Position numbers and translations under genes: made by a program. A model generated the notes under the pieces. It was not told the DNA's origin, searched no databases, and worked only from the letters and a program-made list of their open reading frames with translations. Shown piece by piece: positions 53,226 through 59,737 of a stretch of DNA of 64,000 bases (within the stretch, counting starts at the first letter, position 1; every line of letters begins with the position of its first letter). Source of the stretch: Prolixibacteraceae bacterium (GTDB taxonomy: Bacteria > Bacteroidota > Bacteroidia > Bacteroidales > Prolixibacteraceae); NCBI GenBank assembly GCA_025210775.1, contig JAOARB010000028.1, forward strand, positions 62,001 through 126,000, written 5' to 3'.

Positions 53226-55211
53226 CTATTTTTTCTTCCATATAGAGATCGTTAGATTGGCATCTATATCTTGTTTTGTTTCAACAAATTCCCATTCACT
53301 CATCGCATCTGTATCTATTGGATGGTCATCTTCGGGTGGATCTACAAAAACAAGGTAACCGTTCACGACCATTCTACTTGATAATATTCGCAGCCATTCT
53401 TTATAAGAAATTTCATTATCATAACAGCGAACAACTACATGCTGATAGTCTGAAAAGAAAGGCTTCATATTCGCAAAATCGGTCTGGTAGAAAGCAGCCT
53501 TTTCAGAAATATCTATATCGAGAAAATCGTTTAACACAATTTGTTTTTGTTCCTGATCCCAGAAAAGAATATGTTTTTGTTCTTTCATCATAACCCCACA
53601 TCCGATATGCCGTGCAGATCGATCGACACCATGGATATAATGAAAATAACGCATCAATTCGAAAGTAGAACGTCCTGTTGAACATCCAACATCCATGGTC
53701 TTCACTGAAGTTGGATCTTCAAACAAATGACAACATATATCCGTAATAACTTTCTCCTTATAATTCTGAGAAGGTGTCCATTCACAAAGGAGTTTTTCTA
53801 CAACTTCTTTATCATAGACAACAGTCTCCCCTCCTCTCTCCTGTTGGTAGTCTGAGAGAATATATCTAAATCCCGCATGTTGATAGAAGTGTCGACGAAA
53901 AGCATATCGTGCATAACGTGAAGCTTCATTCCCTGTAGAGATCCAAGATCCGCCTTTTATCAGGTTATGCTTATGATCGAAAGTAGGGACTGAGAAATCA
54001 TCATAGATAGGGTGTACTCTAAATCCTTTGTAACCATCTATTGGCGTTTGTGTCCATTGCCATACATTACCAATAACATCGTAAATATTGCCAAAAGCAA
54101 AAGTATTAATTGGACAAGGAGAATGATAATGTTCCAAATTGATATTACCTGGAGCTATAGGCCATTGATAAAGGTCTTCAATCTGCCCTTGTCGATAAAT
54201 AGATTCCCATTGTGCCTCAGAAGGTAGAGCATAATTTTTAGACTCCTTCTTACTCTTCCAACGACAAAAAGCTTCGGCCTCTAAACAGTTGACTTCTACA
54301 GGCCAATCCCATGGCATATCAATCAGTTCAAATATAGTGCGTAATTTCCAATGGTTCTGGTGCATTATCCAAAAACGAGGAGCCATACAATGTTTATATT
54401 TAACCCAGTCCCATCCCTCCTGAGACCAATATTCCTGGGTACTGTAACCTTTATCAATCACAAAAGACAAGTATTCTGAATTAGAGCAGAGATATTTAGA
54501 CACTTGCATCGAAGCCACCCTTTCGACAGATGTTCCATATTCATTGTCCCAGCCATAAGTTGGATAATCTATCGGTTTACCAAGTACCATCTCTGTTCCT
54601 TCAATTTCGACCATCTGATTTACAGGAGGGAAACCATTGGATGGAGCATTTTTCCAAAATTGGACAATCGAAAGATACTCTAATGGCAATTGTCTTATCA
54701 AAACAGAAGAGGTTTCAATATGAATACGTAGATGCTCGATTCCCATCATAACAATCCACATCCGAGAATTCCAGTCAATAGGTAGAGAGAAATTCTCCTC
54801 CATGATGATTTTCTCCACCATACCAAAGACTTTCTTACGATAGTTTCGAACTTCACCTAGTGGAGGCCAATCATAATGTTTCGAATCAAGATCATCCCAT
54901 GACATCTCATCCACTCCGATGGCAAAAAGAGATTCAAATAAAGGATTGATTCTTTCTGAAATAATACCTGAGGCTAAAAACTTATTAACAAAGAAAGAAG
55001 CAGTATGTCCATAATAAAAGATTAATGGATGACGTAGCTCATCGGCTCTTTTATAAAAACCTAATGAATCAGTAATACCAGAATAAAGGGTATCCTCAAC
55101 GGTTACAGCTTCTCTAAAATAATGTAATATATTGTTTCTCGCTTGTTCTATGTCAGTACCATCTAAAGGTACCCCTTTTACAACACTTTGAGATAATAAC
55201 GTTCTCATCAT
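53226..55211 (-). CDS. ovoA: OvoA-type 5-histidylcysteine sulfoxide synthase with methyltransferase domain
   Basis: The protein has 661 residues in three parts. The first is a DinB-like domain with the iron ligands expected from His69 (YYGHTASF) and from His160/His164 in EHLRIHIE. The second is a formylglycine-generating-enzyme-like (EgtB/OvoA) domain (about 195-455, with SEAQWESIYRQG, GNVWQWT and KGGSWISTGNEASRYARYAFR). The third is a C-terminal SAM methyltransferase with DVGCSTGR (507-514). This is the OvoA layout: oxygen-dependent joining of cysteine to histidine and, after a lyase step, N-methylation to ovothiol. The PLP lyase OvoB is not in the window. It is divergent from the helicase/TerD unit. 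Confidence 0.9.
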   Translation of the reverse strand: MMRTLLSQSVVKGVPLDGTDIEQARNNILHYFREAVTVEDTLYSGITDSLGFYKRADELRHPLIFYYGHTASFFVNKFLASGIISERINPLFESLFAIGVDEMSWDDLDSKHYDWPPLGEVRNYRKKVFGMVEKIIMEENFSLPIDWNSRMWIVMMGIEHLRIHIETSSVLIRQLPLEYLSIVQFWKNAPSNGFPPVNQMVEIEGTEMVLGKPIDYPTYGWDNEYGTSVERVASMQVSKYLCSNSEYLSFVIDKGYSTQEYWSQEGWDWVKYKHCMAPRFWIMHQNHWKLRTIFELIDMPWDWPVEVNCLEAEAFCRWKSKKESKNYALPSEAQWESIYRQGQIEDLYQWPIAPGNINLEHYHSPCPINTFAFGNIYDVIGNVWQWTQTPIDGYKGFRVHPIYDDFSVPTFDHKHNLIKGGSWISTGNEASRYARYAFRRHFYQHAGFRYILSDYQQERGGETVVYDKEVVEKLLCEWTPSQNYKEKVITDICCHLFEDPTSVKTMDVGCSTGRSTFELMRYFHYIHGVDRSARHIGCGVMMKEQKHILFWDQEQKQIVLNDFLDIDISEKAAFYQTDFANMKPFFSDYQHVVVRCYDNEISYKEWLRILSSRMVVNGYLVFVDPPEDDHPIDTDAMSEWEFVETKQDIDANLTISIWKKK

Positions 55212-55604
55212 TTCCTATGGATCTATTTTAGTTTCTTACATTATAAGACAATGAACAATCCGTTTTGTTTAGCTATAACCTAACTACAACGATTATTTCG
55301 GGTTTAGAATGACCTTTAATAAATATATTTTAAGGATATCATAAACGATCTATCGACTAAAATAGAACCAGTAGAACACTGTATATTAGGATTTATGAAC
55401 AATGAGTTACAATACGCAACAGTTGTTTCAATACATAATTTTCATTAACTCGTCTGTTAATCTTTAATAAATTTCTTTTTTTACTACTTTTATAATGAAA
55501 TTATCTGTTTAGGAGAAGCATCTAAAGAGATAAAAAGAGAGAGAGAATAGAGTACATATAAAACAAGGAACAATTCAAGAGTCAAAAGCATAATCACTTT
55601 TGTA
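55212..55604. other. Divergent intergenic region of ovoA and the helicase gene
   Basis: This 393-nt AT-rich stretch has no gene. A near-consensus TACTTTTA lies near 55487-55494 on the plus strand, and TTTTG occurs 5 nt before the helicase start. Neither is a full promoter match. Confidence 0.35.
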
Positions 55605-57914
55605 ATGGAAACGATTATATTATCCCAAGAACAAAAAAGTGTGATTCAATTTTCACAGCCAGGAGCCTATGCTATCAAAGGAATAGCTGGAAGTGGAAAA
55701 ACGACAGTCGGACTGCATCGCATACATTTTTTACAGGAGAAATGTGCCCAAGGGGAGAAAATACTTGTAGTCACCTATCATAAGGTATTGACAGATTATC
55801 TTCGTTTTTTGGAGAAAGAACTACTAAAGACAGTAGTTGAAAGGGAGCTTCCTTTCCAAGACAAACTAGATGGTGTACCACTACTTAATGATAAAAATAA
55901 AGATGTAGATATTATCAACATCGATAAGATGATATATCATTTTTATTCGAAATATAGAGAGCGAAAAAGAACGCATCATTATTATAAAAATCTACCAGCA
56001 AGAGCATCTTCTTTTGCAGATATAAATGAGATTTTCCAAAAAGCCTTAAAACAGGCTCAAAACAAATATCCTCAATGCAAGATCCTACAAGGCAATAGTT
56101 ATTTCTTAAAAGATGAAATCGATTACATCAATAATTGTCGAATAGATAATATTAAACATTATCAGATATTTACACGAAAAGGTCGTAATCGTAATGAGGA
56201 GATGAAAAAGACGCTTCTAAAAAAATCACAAACACGAGAAGCAATCTTCTATCTTCGAAGGAAATACAACAATATGTTGATCTTTTCTGGAGGGATGGAC
56301 TTTCCTATCATGCGTCTATTGGCATTAAGAGAAGTATCCGAGAATCCTCCTCATAAATATACCCATCTTATCATCGATGAGTGCCAAGATTTGGATCGTA
56401 CAAGATTGGATTTTCTTAAATTCTTTATCAAACCATCCAAGACCTCATCCGCTACATTCCTATATGATAACACCCAAAGTATCTATAATGGATCTTGGCT
56501 AGGGAGTGGACATGGTTTTAGTTCTTTAGGCATTGATATCCTTGGCAATAGAAGTAGGATATTGAAACGAAATTATCGTACTACTTATGAAATACAGAGT
56601 GCTGCACAAGCACTGATAAAACATAATGGATCCTATACACAAGAGGTAGAACCTGACTTGATCAACAAAGGAGGGATCAAACCATTTTGGGCACATTGTA
56701 AAGATCAGAAACATCATAACGATTATATCGTAGATGTGATTAAAACACAGATAGAAACACTATCTCTACAAGATATTATTGTGGCTACACGCACCAATAA
56801 AGAAGCAGAGGTGATCTATAATACGATCCAAAAAGCAGGTATATCATGTTCGTTTTTTCGCAATCACGATACCGCCTTTGAAGAGAATAGTGTTCGTGTA
56901 ATGACCATTAACAACACCAAAGGTCTGGAGAGTCAGATGGTGATTTTGGCTAACATGATAGATGGTTCTATTCCACGTAAGACCAACGACCAGAATACGA
57001 TATCTCAAGAATTAAGACTATTATATGTAGGAATGACTAGAGCCTCTAAAATGCTTTATATGGTCTCTTATGGTCAAGTATCTCCATTTATTCAGAAGAT
57101 GCCAAAAGAGGTATTTGAAGTTGTTGATTTTAAAGATTATCGTCCATTCTCCCCAATTAAAGATGAGCTTAAAGAACAACTCCATTCATTGGTTGACAAA
57201 CTAATGAAAGAGATTGAAGTTTTTGTAAAGTTGAAATGTTCGTTTCATCACAATGGTTGTTTTCAAACTTGTTACAAGAACCTTATGTATGGAGTGCTAC
57301 GCATGGAACATATCCAAGAGGAAGCTTTCACATTAAAGAACTCTATCGACAACAACACTACTTTAAAGAATCTATATGATGCATTTCTTAAAAGTTGTGC
57401 CCACAAATTGGAAGAGGCTCATCATGAACTAATCTCATTTATTGCTTGTCCTTATCCTATAAAACAGAGAAGAGAGGCGCTGTCGAAACGTTTTGTTCGA
57501 TTTTCTGAAATGTCCATTACTGCAATCTCAACAGCCGAAGATATCTTGGAAGGAAAGCAGGAGGATGATTACGATTATAGTCCTACGCTAGTAAGCTATT
57601 CTAAAGCATTAGAGCTGGAGCTCCATCATCTTTTTGAATATCATAGATTGTTTGATGACCCTTTCTTTGAAGATAAAATCCAAGCCGGGACACAAAGCTA
57701 TAGGTTATTTGATTTCCTTCGTTTCATGCAGACACAAAAAGGTAAATTGTCTGATATCAAGCAATTATTGGATTACATAAACTTCAGAAAGAACCGTAAT
57801 GGAGCTACTCACACGGTATGTATTGACCAATTGCAAGCGTCTCGAATCAGAGACATTCTAATGAAAGAAAACGGTGTATTCGATCTAATCAACCAAACAT
57901 ATGAGTCGTTATGA
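55605..57914 (+). CDS. UvrD-like superfamily 1 helicase with HEPN-like C-terminus
   Basis: The protein has 769 residues. The helicase core holds Q-motif LSQEQ (7-11), Walker A GIAGSGKTT (26-34), motif II IIDECQD (256-262), motif IV-like RNYRTTYEIQSAAQ, motif V MTINNTKGLESQMV and motif VI LLYVGMTRASKMLYM, so ATP-driven strand translocation is very likely. The region after about residue 510 is not part of standard UvrD proteins. It is helical and ends with YSKALELELHHLF (665-677) and RNGATH (731-736), followed by two helices. RNxxxH is the catalytic signature of HEPN ribonucleases, so a HEPN-like domain at about 655-765 is inferred. The stop overlaps the start of a TerD gene (ATGA). Confidence 0.9.
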   Translation: METIILSQEQKSVIQFSQPGAYAIKGIAGSGKTTVGLHRIHFLQEKCAQGEKILVVTYHKVLTDYLRFLEKELLKTVVERELPFQDKLDGVPLLNDKNKDVDIINIDKMIYHFYSKYRERKRTHHYYKNLPARASSFADINEIFQKALKQAQNKYPQCKILQGNSYFLKDEIDYINNCRIDNIKHYQIFTRKGRNRNEEMKKTLLKKSQTREAIFYLRRKYNNMLIFSGGMDFPIMRLLALREVSENPPHKYTHLIIDECQDLDRTRLDFLKFFIKPSKTSSATFLYDNTQSIYNGSWLGSGHGFSSLGIDILGNRSRILKRNYRTTYEIQSAAQALIKHNGSYTQEVEPDLINKGGIKPFWAHCKDQKHHNDYIVDVIKTQIETLSLQDIIVATRTNKEAEVIYNTIQKAGISCSFFRNHDTAFEENSVRVMTINNTKGLESQMVILANMIDGSIPRKTNDQNTISQELRLLYVGMTRASKMLYMVSYGQVSPFIQKMPKEVFEVVDFKDYRPFSPIKDELKEQLHSLVDKLMKEIEVFVKLKCSFHHNGCFQTCYKNLMYGVLRMEHIQEEAFTLKNSIDNNTTLKNLYDAFLKSCAHKLEEAHHELISFIACPYPIKQRREALSKRFVRFSEMSITAISTAEDILEGKQEDDYDYSPTLVSYSKALELELHHLFEYHRLFDDPFFEDKIQAGTQSYRLFDFLRFMQTQKGKLSDIKQLLDYINFRKNRNGATHTVCIDQLQASRIRDILMKENGVFDLINQTYESL

Positions 57915-58519
57915 GCATTGAAATAGATAAATATAAATTTACAATAGGGATCAATTGGGGACCAATAAAAGAGATGGGATGGTTTAATACCGAACAAAAA
58001 ATTCCTGTAGACCTTGACCTTATCTGTTTTGAAATTGACAGAGACGGACTGTTGGTAAATACCCTTAGTTTTGAATTAGAGAAACAGCCATGGGGTAAGC
58101 TTAGTCAAGACGATATGTCTGGGGACTTAAGTGGAGATGATCATAGAGATAACGAATGGATTGAATTTGATCTGGAACCATTAACCTATGGTCATCAACT
58201 TGTTGTTGGGGTAATCAACTATACAGAACAGAGCTTATGTAACATCACTCATTTTGATTATCGTGTCTATACAGGAGAGATCAACCGCCCGAAAGAGATA
58301 TTCTATTATAAAAACATAAAAAGAGAGATCCCTTTGACCTTTGATTCCGAATCAATGATTCTAGGTTGTCTGGAACGTCTAAATGGGACCATTCATTATA
58401 AAGAACTAGAGATCTCTTCACACTATAAAGACCCTATCGGTCTATGGAATGAGATGGAAAAGAGTAGATACATTCAAGATGTGTTGGGTATCATAAGAAA
58501 CCAAATAGATATGTTCTAA
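57911..58519 (+). CDS. TerD-family protein
   Basis: The protein has 202 residues. The N-terminal TerD beta-sandwich (about 8-120) shows VDLDLICFEIDRDG (33-46), which corresponds to the DLDxS strand, and SGDLSGDDHRDNEW (70-83), which corresponds to the acidic calcium-binding loop of TerD. The C-terminal part (about 125-202) is a short extension. TerD proteins bind calcium and act in tellurium-resistance and general stress or phage-response systems. The start overlaps the helicase stop by 4 nt (ATGA), so the two proteins are made together. No other ter genes are adjacent. Confidence 0.87.
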   Translation: MSIEIDKYKFTIGINWGPIKEMGWFNTEQKIPVDLDLICFEIDRDGLLVNTLSFELEKQPWGKLSQDDMSGDLSGDDHRDNEWIEFDLEPLTYGHQLVVGVINYTEQSLCNITHFDYRVYTGEINRPKEIFYYKNIKREIPLTFDSESMILGCLERLNGTIHYKELEISSHYKDPIGLWNEMEKSRYIQDVLGIIRNQIDMF

Positions 58520-58751: not shown

Positions 58752-58759
58752 TACTTTTG
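58752..58759 (+). promoter_or_regulatory. Promoter -7 element (TACTTTTG)
   Basis: TACTTTTG matches TAnnTTTG. Transcription would start near 58766, so the AraC/GyrI gene should start at 58778 or later rather than at the TTG at 58757. Confidence 0.35.
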
Positions 58760-58777
58760 TGGTCTGTAATAATCACA

Positions 58778-59737
58778 ATGTTAAAGTTTATGAACAACAT
58801 GAAATCCTTTAGGAAGGAATATCTACAACGTATCAACCGAGTGATCGATTATATTGAAAAGAATCTAGATCAAGATCTAAGTTTGGAGAACCTTGCGGAT
58901 ATTGCCCATTTCTCTAGTTTTCATTTCCATCGCATCTTCACCTCATTTACTGGAGAAGCTCTCCATCAATTTATCAAAAGGAAAAGAGTAGAAAAAGCAG
59001 CAAGACTTTTACTTAATAAAACAGAATATCCAATCAATGAGATTGCTTGCGATTGTGGTTTTAACAGTACTGCTGTTTTCTGTCGTAGCTTTAAATCTCA
59101 TTTTGGGATGACAGCACAAACGTTCCGAAAAGAAAGAGCAAAAAACTATAGCAAGAATGATCAATGGCTAAGCAAGAACAGTCAACTACAAGAATCTTCT
59201 ATCGCATACCTTTGTAATATCAATTCAAACAAAAAATGGAAAGATATTATGGAGAATAACATTACCATCAAAAAGATGCCAGCTCTAAATCTGGTTTATA
59301 TACGTCAAATTGGACCATATCACCTTATTGGTCAAGCCTATGATAAACTGTTTAAGTGGGCTAAACCACGTGGACTATTTGATCCTAATAAAACACAAGG
59401 GGTAACTATTTATCATGACGATCCTGAAATTACAGATATTGAAAAAATCCAACATAGCACATGTATCACTGTAGATAAAAAAGTCAATGTTGATGGGGAA
59501 CTAGGATATATGAAACTACCAGCGTGCAAATGTGCAGTAGGTAGTTTTGAAATTGGTATGGAGGAATTCGAAACAGCATGGTCAATTATGTGTGGTTGGG
59601 TAACAGAAAATGGCTACCAAGCAGCCGATATAGCACCATACGAACTATATCATAATCACCATGAAGAACATCCTGAAAGAAAATTTATTGTAGATATATG
59701 TATTCCTATTGAACCAATCTATCTATTTTCAATATAA
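58778..59737 (+). CDS. AraC-family regulator with GyrI-like effector domain
   Basis: An N-terminal AraC double helix-turn-helix (about 10-115 from this start: LSLENLADIAHFSSFHFHRIF, CDCGFNSTAVFCRSFKSHFGMTAQTFRKER) is joined to a C-terminal GyrI/BmrR-like small-molecule-binding domain (about 165-319). This arrangement is typical of Rob/BmrR-like multidrug or stress regulators. Starts at 58790 or 58799 are also possible. It follows the TerD gene by 250 nt and is not obviously part of that unit. Confidence 0.9.
   Translation: MLKFMNNMKSFRKEYLQRINRVIDYIEKNLDQDLSLENLADIAHFSSFHFHRIFTSFTGEALHQFIKRKRVEKAARLLLNKTEYPINEIACDCGFNSTAVFCRSFKSHFGMTAQTFRKERAKNYSKNDQWLSKNSQLQESSIAYLCNINSNKKWKDIMENNITIKKMPALNLVYIRQIGPYHLIGQAYDKLFKWAKPRGLFDPNKTQGVTIYHDDPEITDIEKIQHSTCITVDKKVNVDGELGYMKLPACKCAVGSFEIGMEEFETAWSIMCGWVTENGYQAADIAPYELYHNHHEEHPERKFIVDICIPIEPIYLFSI

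Follow-up and report, generated by a model that had tools for sequence, protein, structure and literature searches.

Fusions of SF1 helicases to HEPN domains and operons that join HEPN proteins to TerD were described in conflict systems in 2013 (Anantharaman et al. 2013, PMC3710099). The hallmark of the HEPN superfamily is an Rx4-6H motif with a polar residue after the arginine, accompanied by an upstream acidic residue that typically belongs to an Ex3[KR] motif (PMC3710099). CoCoNuT (CnuHE) resembles the locus reported here in its SF1 (UPF1-type) helicase, HEPN effector and Ter-linked TerY-P genes, and differs from it in having a McrB GTPase core, TerY-P rather than TerD, and the HEPN domain on a separate wHTH protein (PMC11090510). 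TerD has been proposed to bind nucleotide derivatives in conflict systems (PMC7159879). TerD proteins are widespread.

The 64,000-nucleotide stretch of DNA analysed here (the window) is part of a 3.75-Mb draft genome. An SF1 helicase reading frame (55605-57914, + strand, 769 amino acids) is followed by that of a TerD-family protein (57911-58519, + strand, 202 amino acids), and the ATGA start/stop overlap on which the initial annotation based translational coupling is confirmed in the sequence at 57911-57914 (+ strand). The helicase consists of three parts, all on the + strand. An SF1 (UvrD/HelD-like) motor with intact motifs occupies residues 1-505 (55605-57119) and is supported by Pfam, motifs and phmmer. 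A helical linker spans residues 506-639 (57120-57521), supported by ortholog identity and a low-confidence helix prediction. Residues 640-769 (57522-57911) form a probable HEPN RNase domain based on motifs and a PF18735 profile alignment. The divergent neighbor on the - strand (53226-55211) encodes OvoA, a 5-histidylcysteine sulfoxide synthase with a methyltransferase, which matches TIGR04344 with E = 1.8e-191 (636.8 bits against a cut-off of 400) and TIGR04345 with E = 1.6e-21, below the cut-off of that model. The region between ovoA and the helicase gene extends from 55212 to 55604. An AraC-type regulator with a GyrI-like domain is located just 3′ of the TerD gene (58757-59737); this adjacency is not kept in the other genus genomes compared.

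A full-length helicase was found in 4 of 140 genomes of the family, which are all four genomes of the window's genus, at 50-54% identity. No orthologue turned up among the 198 genomes sampled from the order, the 295 and 395 from the class or the 291 from the phylum, nor in the viral contigs, phages or plasmids searched. Helicase and TerD occur together in all four genus genomes with a spacing of -4 to +2 nucleotides. The predicted co-occurrence of the two genes thus holds within the genus, but among the genomes searched the pair is confined to that one genus. Three further genomes from the order gave weak matches to the C-terminal extension, which were attributed to chance. The match examined most closely (L009) is to a surface protein rich in repeats, the one in L008 falls within an adenylate-kinase-like gene, and the third contains in-frame stops.

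Motifs I-VI of the UvrD/Rep/PcrA SF1A helicases are all intact in the motor, with GSGKTT at residue 29, DECQDL at 258, QSIY at 291, NYRTT at 323, TKGLES at 438 and VGMTRAS at 475. The motor matches the Pfam models UvrD_C (2e-21) and UvrD-helicase (8.5e-14), which together with the full motif set bears out the original helicase call. In phmmer alignments to UvrD/PcrA structures, query residues 247-414 correspond to residues 209-373 of 3lfu and query residues 422-489 correspond to residues 551-620 of 1pjr. The gap between 2A and motif V is 8 residues in the query versus about 175-178 residues in PcrA/UvrD (373 to 551). Because query residues 414-422 span positions 373-551 of UvrD/PcrA, the 2B subdomain is absent from the motor. 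The motor is 60-62% identical to its orthologues and the linker is 31-34% identical, making it the fastest-evolving part of the protein; AlphaFold run without an alignment predicted the linker to be helical with low confidence.

PADLOC GajB models also match the motor (1.7e-29), as would be expected of a Gabija-like (GajB) helicase, or of an ordinary UvrD repair helicase that happens to stand beside an unrelated TerD gene. GajB shares an SF1 UvrD-like motor and a place in a defense system with the reading proposed here, but GajB needs GajA, and the GajA OLD-family nuclease is not encoded beside the helicase, whose neighbors are OvoA and TerD. Gabija has no HEPN domain. The missing 2B subdomain, the tight TerD coupling kept in four genomes, and the HSDR_N/S24 helicases that are the nearest kin of the motor also argue against this explanation, which we regard as highly improbable.

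The helicase continues for about 260 residues after motif VI, in line with the 250-residue extension claimed at the outset. The landmarks of the extension are YSKALELELHHLF at residue 665 and RNGATH at residue 731. RNGATH (residues 731-736; 57795-57812, + strand) is the candidate HEPN Rx4H motif. The RNxxxH pattern singled out in the initial annotation is strictly kept as RNxATH in all four genus orthologues, with R731, N732, A734, T735 and H736 invariant. The sequence ELELH (residues 670-674; 57612-57626, + strand) begins 61 residues before RNGATH and would be the counterpart of the HEPN Ex3[KR] motif. It is conserved as ExELH, with E670 and H674 invariant in 4 of 4 orthologues, and the residue at +4 from E670 is thus an invariant histidine, not the lysine or arginine of a typical Ex3[KR]. 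Among the four orthologues, 23% of the columns in the extension are invariant. The best-conserved 11-residue segment of the extension is 726-736 (8 of 11 invariant), and the segment at 667, which covers ExELH, is among the next best. With random placement, 6.6% of trials produce a best segment of 8 of 11, so the density of conservation is weak evidence by itself; the telling point is that the best-conserved segment is located on the predicted HEPN motif. Shared ancestry may account for part of the conservation among the four relatives.

Profile comparisons were used to examine the extension further. A profile of the four sequences aligned with HEPN_RiboL-PSP (PF18735) across 114 columns and scored 22.2; RNxxxH and the acidic residue both line up with their HEPN counterparts in this alignment. 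None of 100 column shuffles (maximum 18.3) and none of 35 unrelated segments (maximum 20.3) reached this score. The hhalign probability for the match is only 4%, and recognized HEPN families find each other no better in the same test. DUF4145 was rejected as the HEPN type; its match was only local and was reached by 6 of 100 shuffles. The HEPN family match that had been expected for the C terminus did not appear in the Pfam, NCBIfam, PADLOC or PHROGs HMMs or in a PDB profile search, and a hit to RE_TdeIII (0.0014, below its cut-off) is noise. HEPN proteins are bundles of four to five helices and act as metal-independent RNases. Structure prediction, which had been put forward as a check, gave an all-helical model of the extension from the single sequence; with a pLDDT of 41 for residues 509-769 and 38 for residues 630-769 the model is uninformative and provides no usable fold.

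The missing library matches, the weak profile probability and the 6.6% of random placements that equal the best-conserved segment would all fit a different helical domain in the extension, or a HEPN-like domain that binds RNA without catalysis; RNxATH would then be coincidental or structural. We consider this quite unlikely, given that the invariant residues fall on both defining HEPN motifs with HEPN-like spacing and that the RiboL-PSP profile score is above all controls. A HEPN domain is the best reading of the helicase C terminus and a likely one; on the strength of the invariant motifs and the PF18735 alignment it is probably right but not proven. The predicted HEPN domain would be of a type that matches no known HEPN family.

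A parallel was found independently in an SF1 helicase (P0005, L005 6001-8373) from a Fusobacterium animalis plasmid, which carries C-terminal ECEIR...RNDLAH. The motifs are 54 residues apart in this protein versus 61 in the window helicase. The two proteins have an SF1 motor and C-terminal HEPN motifs in common, but the Fusobacterium helicase sits on a long tree branch, has an extra C-terminal domain and lacks TerD. A direct match between a profile of the window HEPN-like domain and the Fusobacterium HEPN did not rise above shuffles, and the resemblance of these putative HEPN domains is in motifs only.

Pfam finds nothing in the window TerD-like protein alone, so the earlier description of the TerD call as firm was too strong. 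Membership in PF02342 stands by way of the orthologues. One orthologue matches PF02342 at 8.5e-5, and the four-sequence profile matches, at 1e-22, a TerD paralogue within complete Bacteroidota ter operons that itself belongs to PF02342 (1.1e-40). The common TerD signature is GINWG-I--KG(W)F...VDLD. Residues resembling the TerD Ca2+ loops, as in SGDLSGDDHRDNEW, are largely invariant in the four genus proteins and mark candidate loops. No second TerD was found at or near the locus or elsewhere in the window genome or in one other genus genome (G558); a third genus genome (G560) has two more TerD genes elsewhere. The locus thus differs from a canonical ter operon, in which several terD paralogues lie close to other ter-operon genes such as terC. 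The pairing of one TerD with one probable effector, and no other TerD found in the genome, is a minimal case in which what TerD senses and controls could be tested directly.

The helicase alignment was searched against 84,980 species genomes, and 31 relatives were read in detail. The nearest relatives of the motor (33-35% identity) are helicase-HSDR_N_2-Peptidase_S24 fusions in Planococcus, Clostridium, Desulfosarcina, Ilyobacter and others. A NERD-HRDC gene is immediately upstream of the fusion in two Clostridium loci (L037 4900-8430 and L039 4849-8436), and the S24 domain of the Clostridium fusions suggests self-cleavage or damage sensing. In one Lachnospiraceae genome (L041 8450-10701), a TerD-like gene (183 amino acids, weak profile match of 0.01) is found 1.7 kb 3′ of the gene for a helicase-S24 fusion. 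The sister group in Bacteroidota, Gammaproteobacteria and Cloacimonadota consists of helicases of about 495 residues followed by DarT and mostly then by an ADP-ribosylglycohydrolase. The three genes are tightly spaced and form operons in at least three phyla (L160 6573-10325, L045 5968-9728, L047 5995-9720, L050 5998-9694 and L054 836-4395); two further loci are partial, one cut by a contig end (L049) and one without a clear third gene (L051). PADLOC made no DarT or glycohydrolase call in the loci tested, and the operon could represent a DarT-type toxin system that has yet to be described.

In the tree, the genus helicases are a single clade that arises within the S24 group (94/94); the DarT helicases branch separately (100/99). 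The tails of the 31 relatives that were read closely all lack R[NDH]xxxH. Because of this nesting and the lack of the motif in the relatives, the HEPN-like tail appears to have replaced the nuclease-peptidase tail on an existing motor. The HSDR_N/S24 kin and the DarT sister group indicate one compact motor with exchangeable partners that attack nucleic acids. A broader and tentative proposal, which we hold to be possible but doubtful, is that an unrecognized family of conflict modules is built around the compact SF1 motor, with interchangeable effectors: the HEPN RNase and TerD; HSDR_N and S24 (with NERD-HRDC in Clostridium); and DarT and ADP-ribosylglycohydrolase in several phyla. In the window's genus, the motor, acting with TerD and possibly ovothiol, would couple RNA cleavage to redox stress. 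A single motor that exchanges toxin and nuclease partners from phylum to phylum would be a sign of defense or damage-response systems not yet described.

In every one of the four genus genomes, ovoA adjoins the helicase gene divergently; its reading frame in G559 encodes 466 amino acids and is near a contig end. The initial annotation mentioned neither this constant neighbor nor the other nuclease and toxin partners of closely related helicases. The window and G560 share ovoA, the helicase, terD and the genes to their right, and G560 and G558 share the same three genes and those to their left. The only close relatives common to the window and G558 neighborhoods are ovoA, the helicase and terD. 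Because the outer flanks change between genomes, the three genes constitute a unit that persists through rearrangement. This persistence hints at a functional link, although common descent may explain it. A promoter or operator shared by ovoA and the helicase gene was discarded as a candidate, since no repeat in the intergenic region is kept across the orthologues. Within a few kb of the block, G558 has a McrB-like AAA_5 gene and a gene with weak resemblance to McrC (L022 1-2135); this is a single instance.

A defense-island location, raised with the original description of the pair, was not borne out within the window, where no defense genes surround the two genes. The lack of an island, the presence of the pair in every genus genome and beside ovoA in all of them, and the general association of TerD proteins with oxidative and metal stress are points in favor of a module that does contain a HEPN domain but serves as a housekeeping stress-response or RNA-quality factor, with a redox connection through ovoA, and is not anti-phage. 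We regard this as unlikely, though less so than a non-HEPN extension. Helicase and TerD evolve fast, being 50-55% identical between genomes in which ffh is 95% identical, and toxin and nuclease partners occur in the helicase clade. In the family, ovoA is common without the helicase (45 versus 4 of 140 genomes), and in three inspected of the 45 ovoA-bearing genomes it was not beside a helicase.

The reading we prefer, at a probability of roughly 50%, is a two-protein module with an RNase effector, which stressed or foreign nucleic acid would trigger and in which TerD would be a partner or sensor. The helicase-TerD unit probably acts in the response to stress or to viruses, because it is found in every sequenced genome of the genus and because related motors carry parts that attack DNA or RNA. 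The partners found in the clade favor a role in conflict or damage, as does the rapid divergence of helicase and TerD; the absence of defense genes around the pair in the window and the constant ovoA neighbor leave room for a role in stress. A defense role is an inference. The compact SF1 motor, without 2B, would engage a signal nucleic acid and spend ATP to license or control the predicted C-terminal HEPN endoribonuclease (R731, N732 and H736, with support from E670). TerD, co-translated with the helicase, would bind or gate the complex, and perhaps sense Ca2+ or a small metabolite; ovothiol, if linked at all, could connect the module to redox state. Candidate triggers are phage DNA or RNA, or nucleic acid damaged under (oxidative) stress. 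Once triggered, the module would cleave RNA and growth would halt.

Three features were absent from the literature searched: the unrecognized type of HEPN domain, a compact motor clade whose partners are exchangeable, and the association with ovoA. The SF1-HEPN and HEPN-TerD combinations have been on record since 2013, and the unit described here is a variant of them. Like the earlier systems (PMC3710099), it has an SF1 (UvrD) helicase, a probable HEPN domain with Rx4H, and a coupling of HEPN to TerD. The HEPN domains of the earlier systems belong to DUF4145 and other families and are often accompanied by restriction components, whereas the putative HEPN domain here is at the C terminus of a compact motor, with a lone TerD, beside ovoA. 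The helicase-HSDR_N_2-Peptidase_S24 proteins belong to the same motor clade and have a C-terminal effector-like extension, but theirs is a PD-(D/E)xK-like HSDR_N with S24, not HEPN, and there is no coupled TerD. The helicase-DarT-ADP-ribosylglycohydrolase operons likewise join a related compact motor to a toxin partner that modifies nucleic acids, but they do so with separate genes and through ADP-ribosylation, in contrast to the RNA cleavage predicted here.
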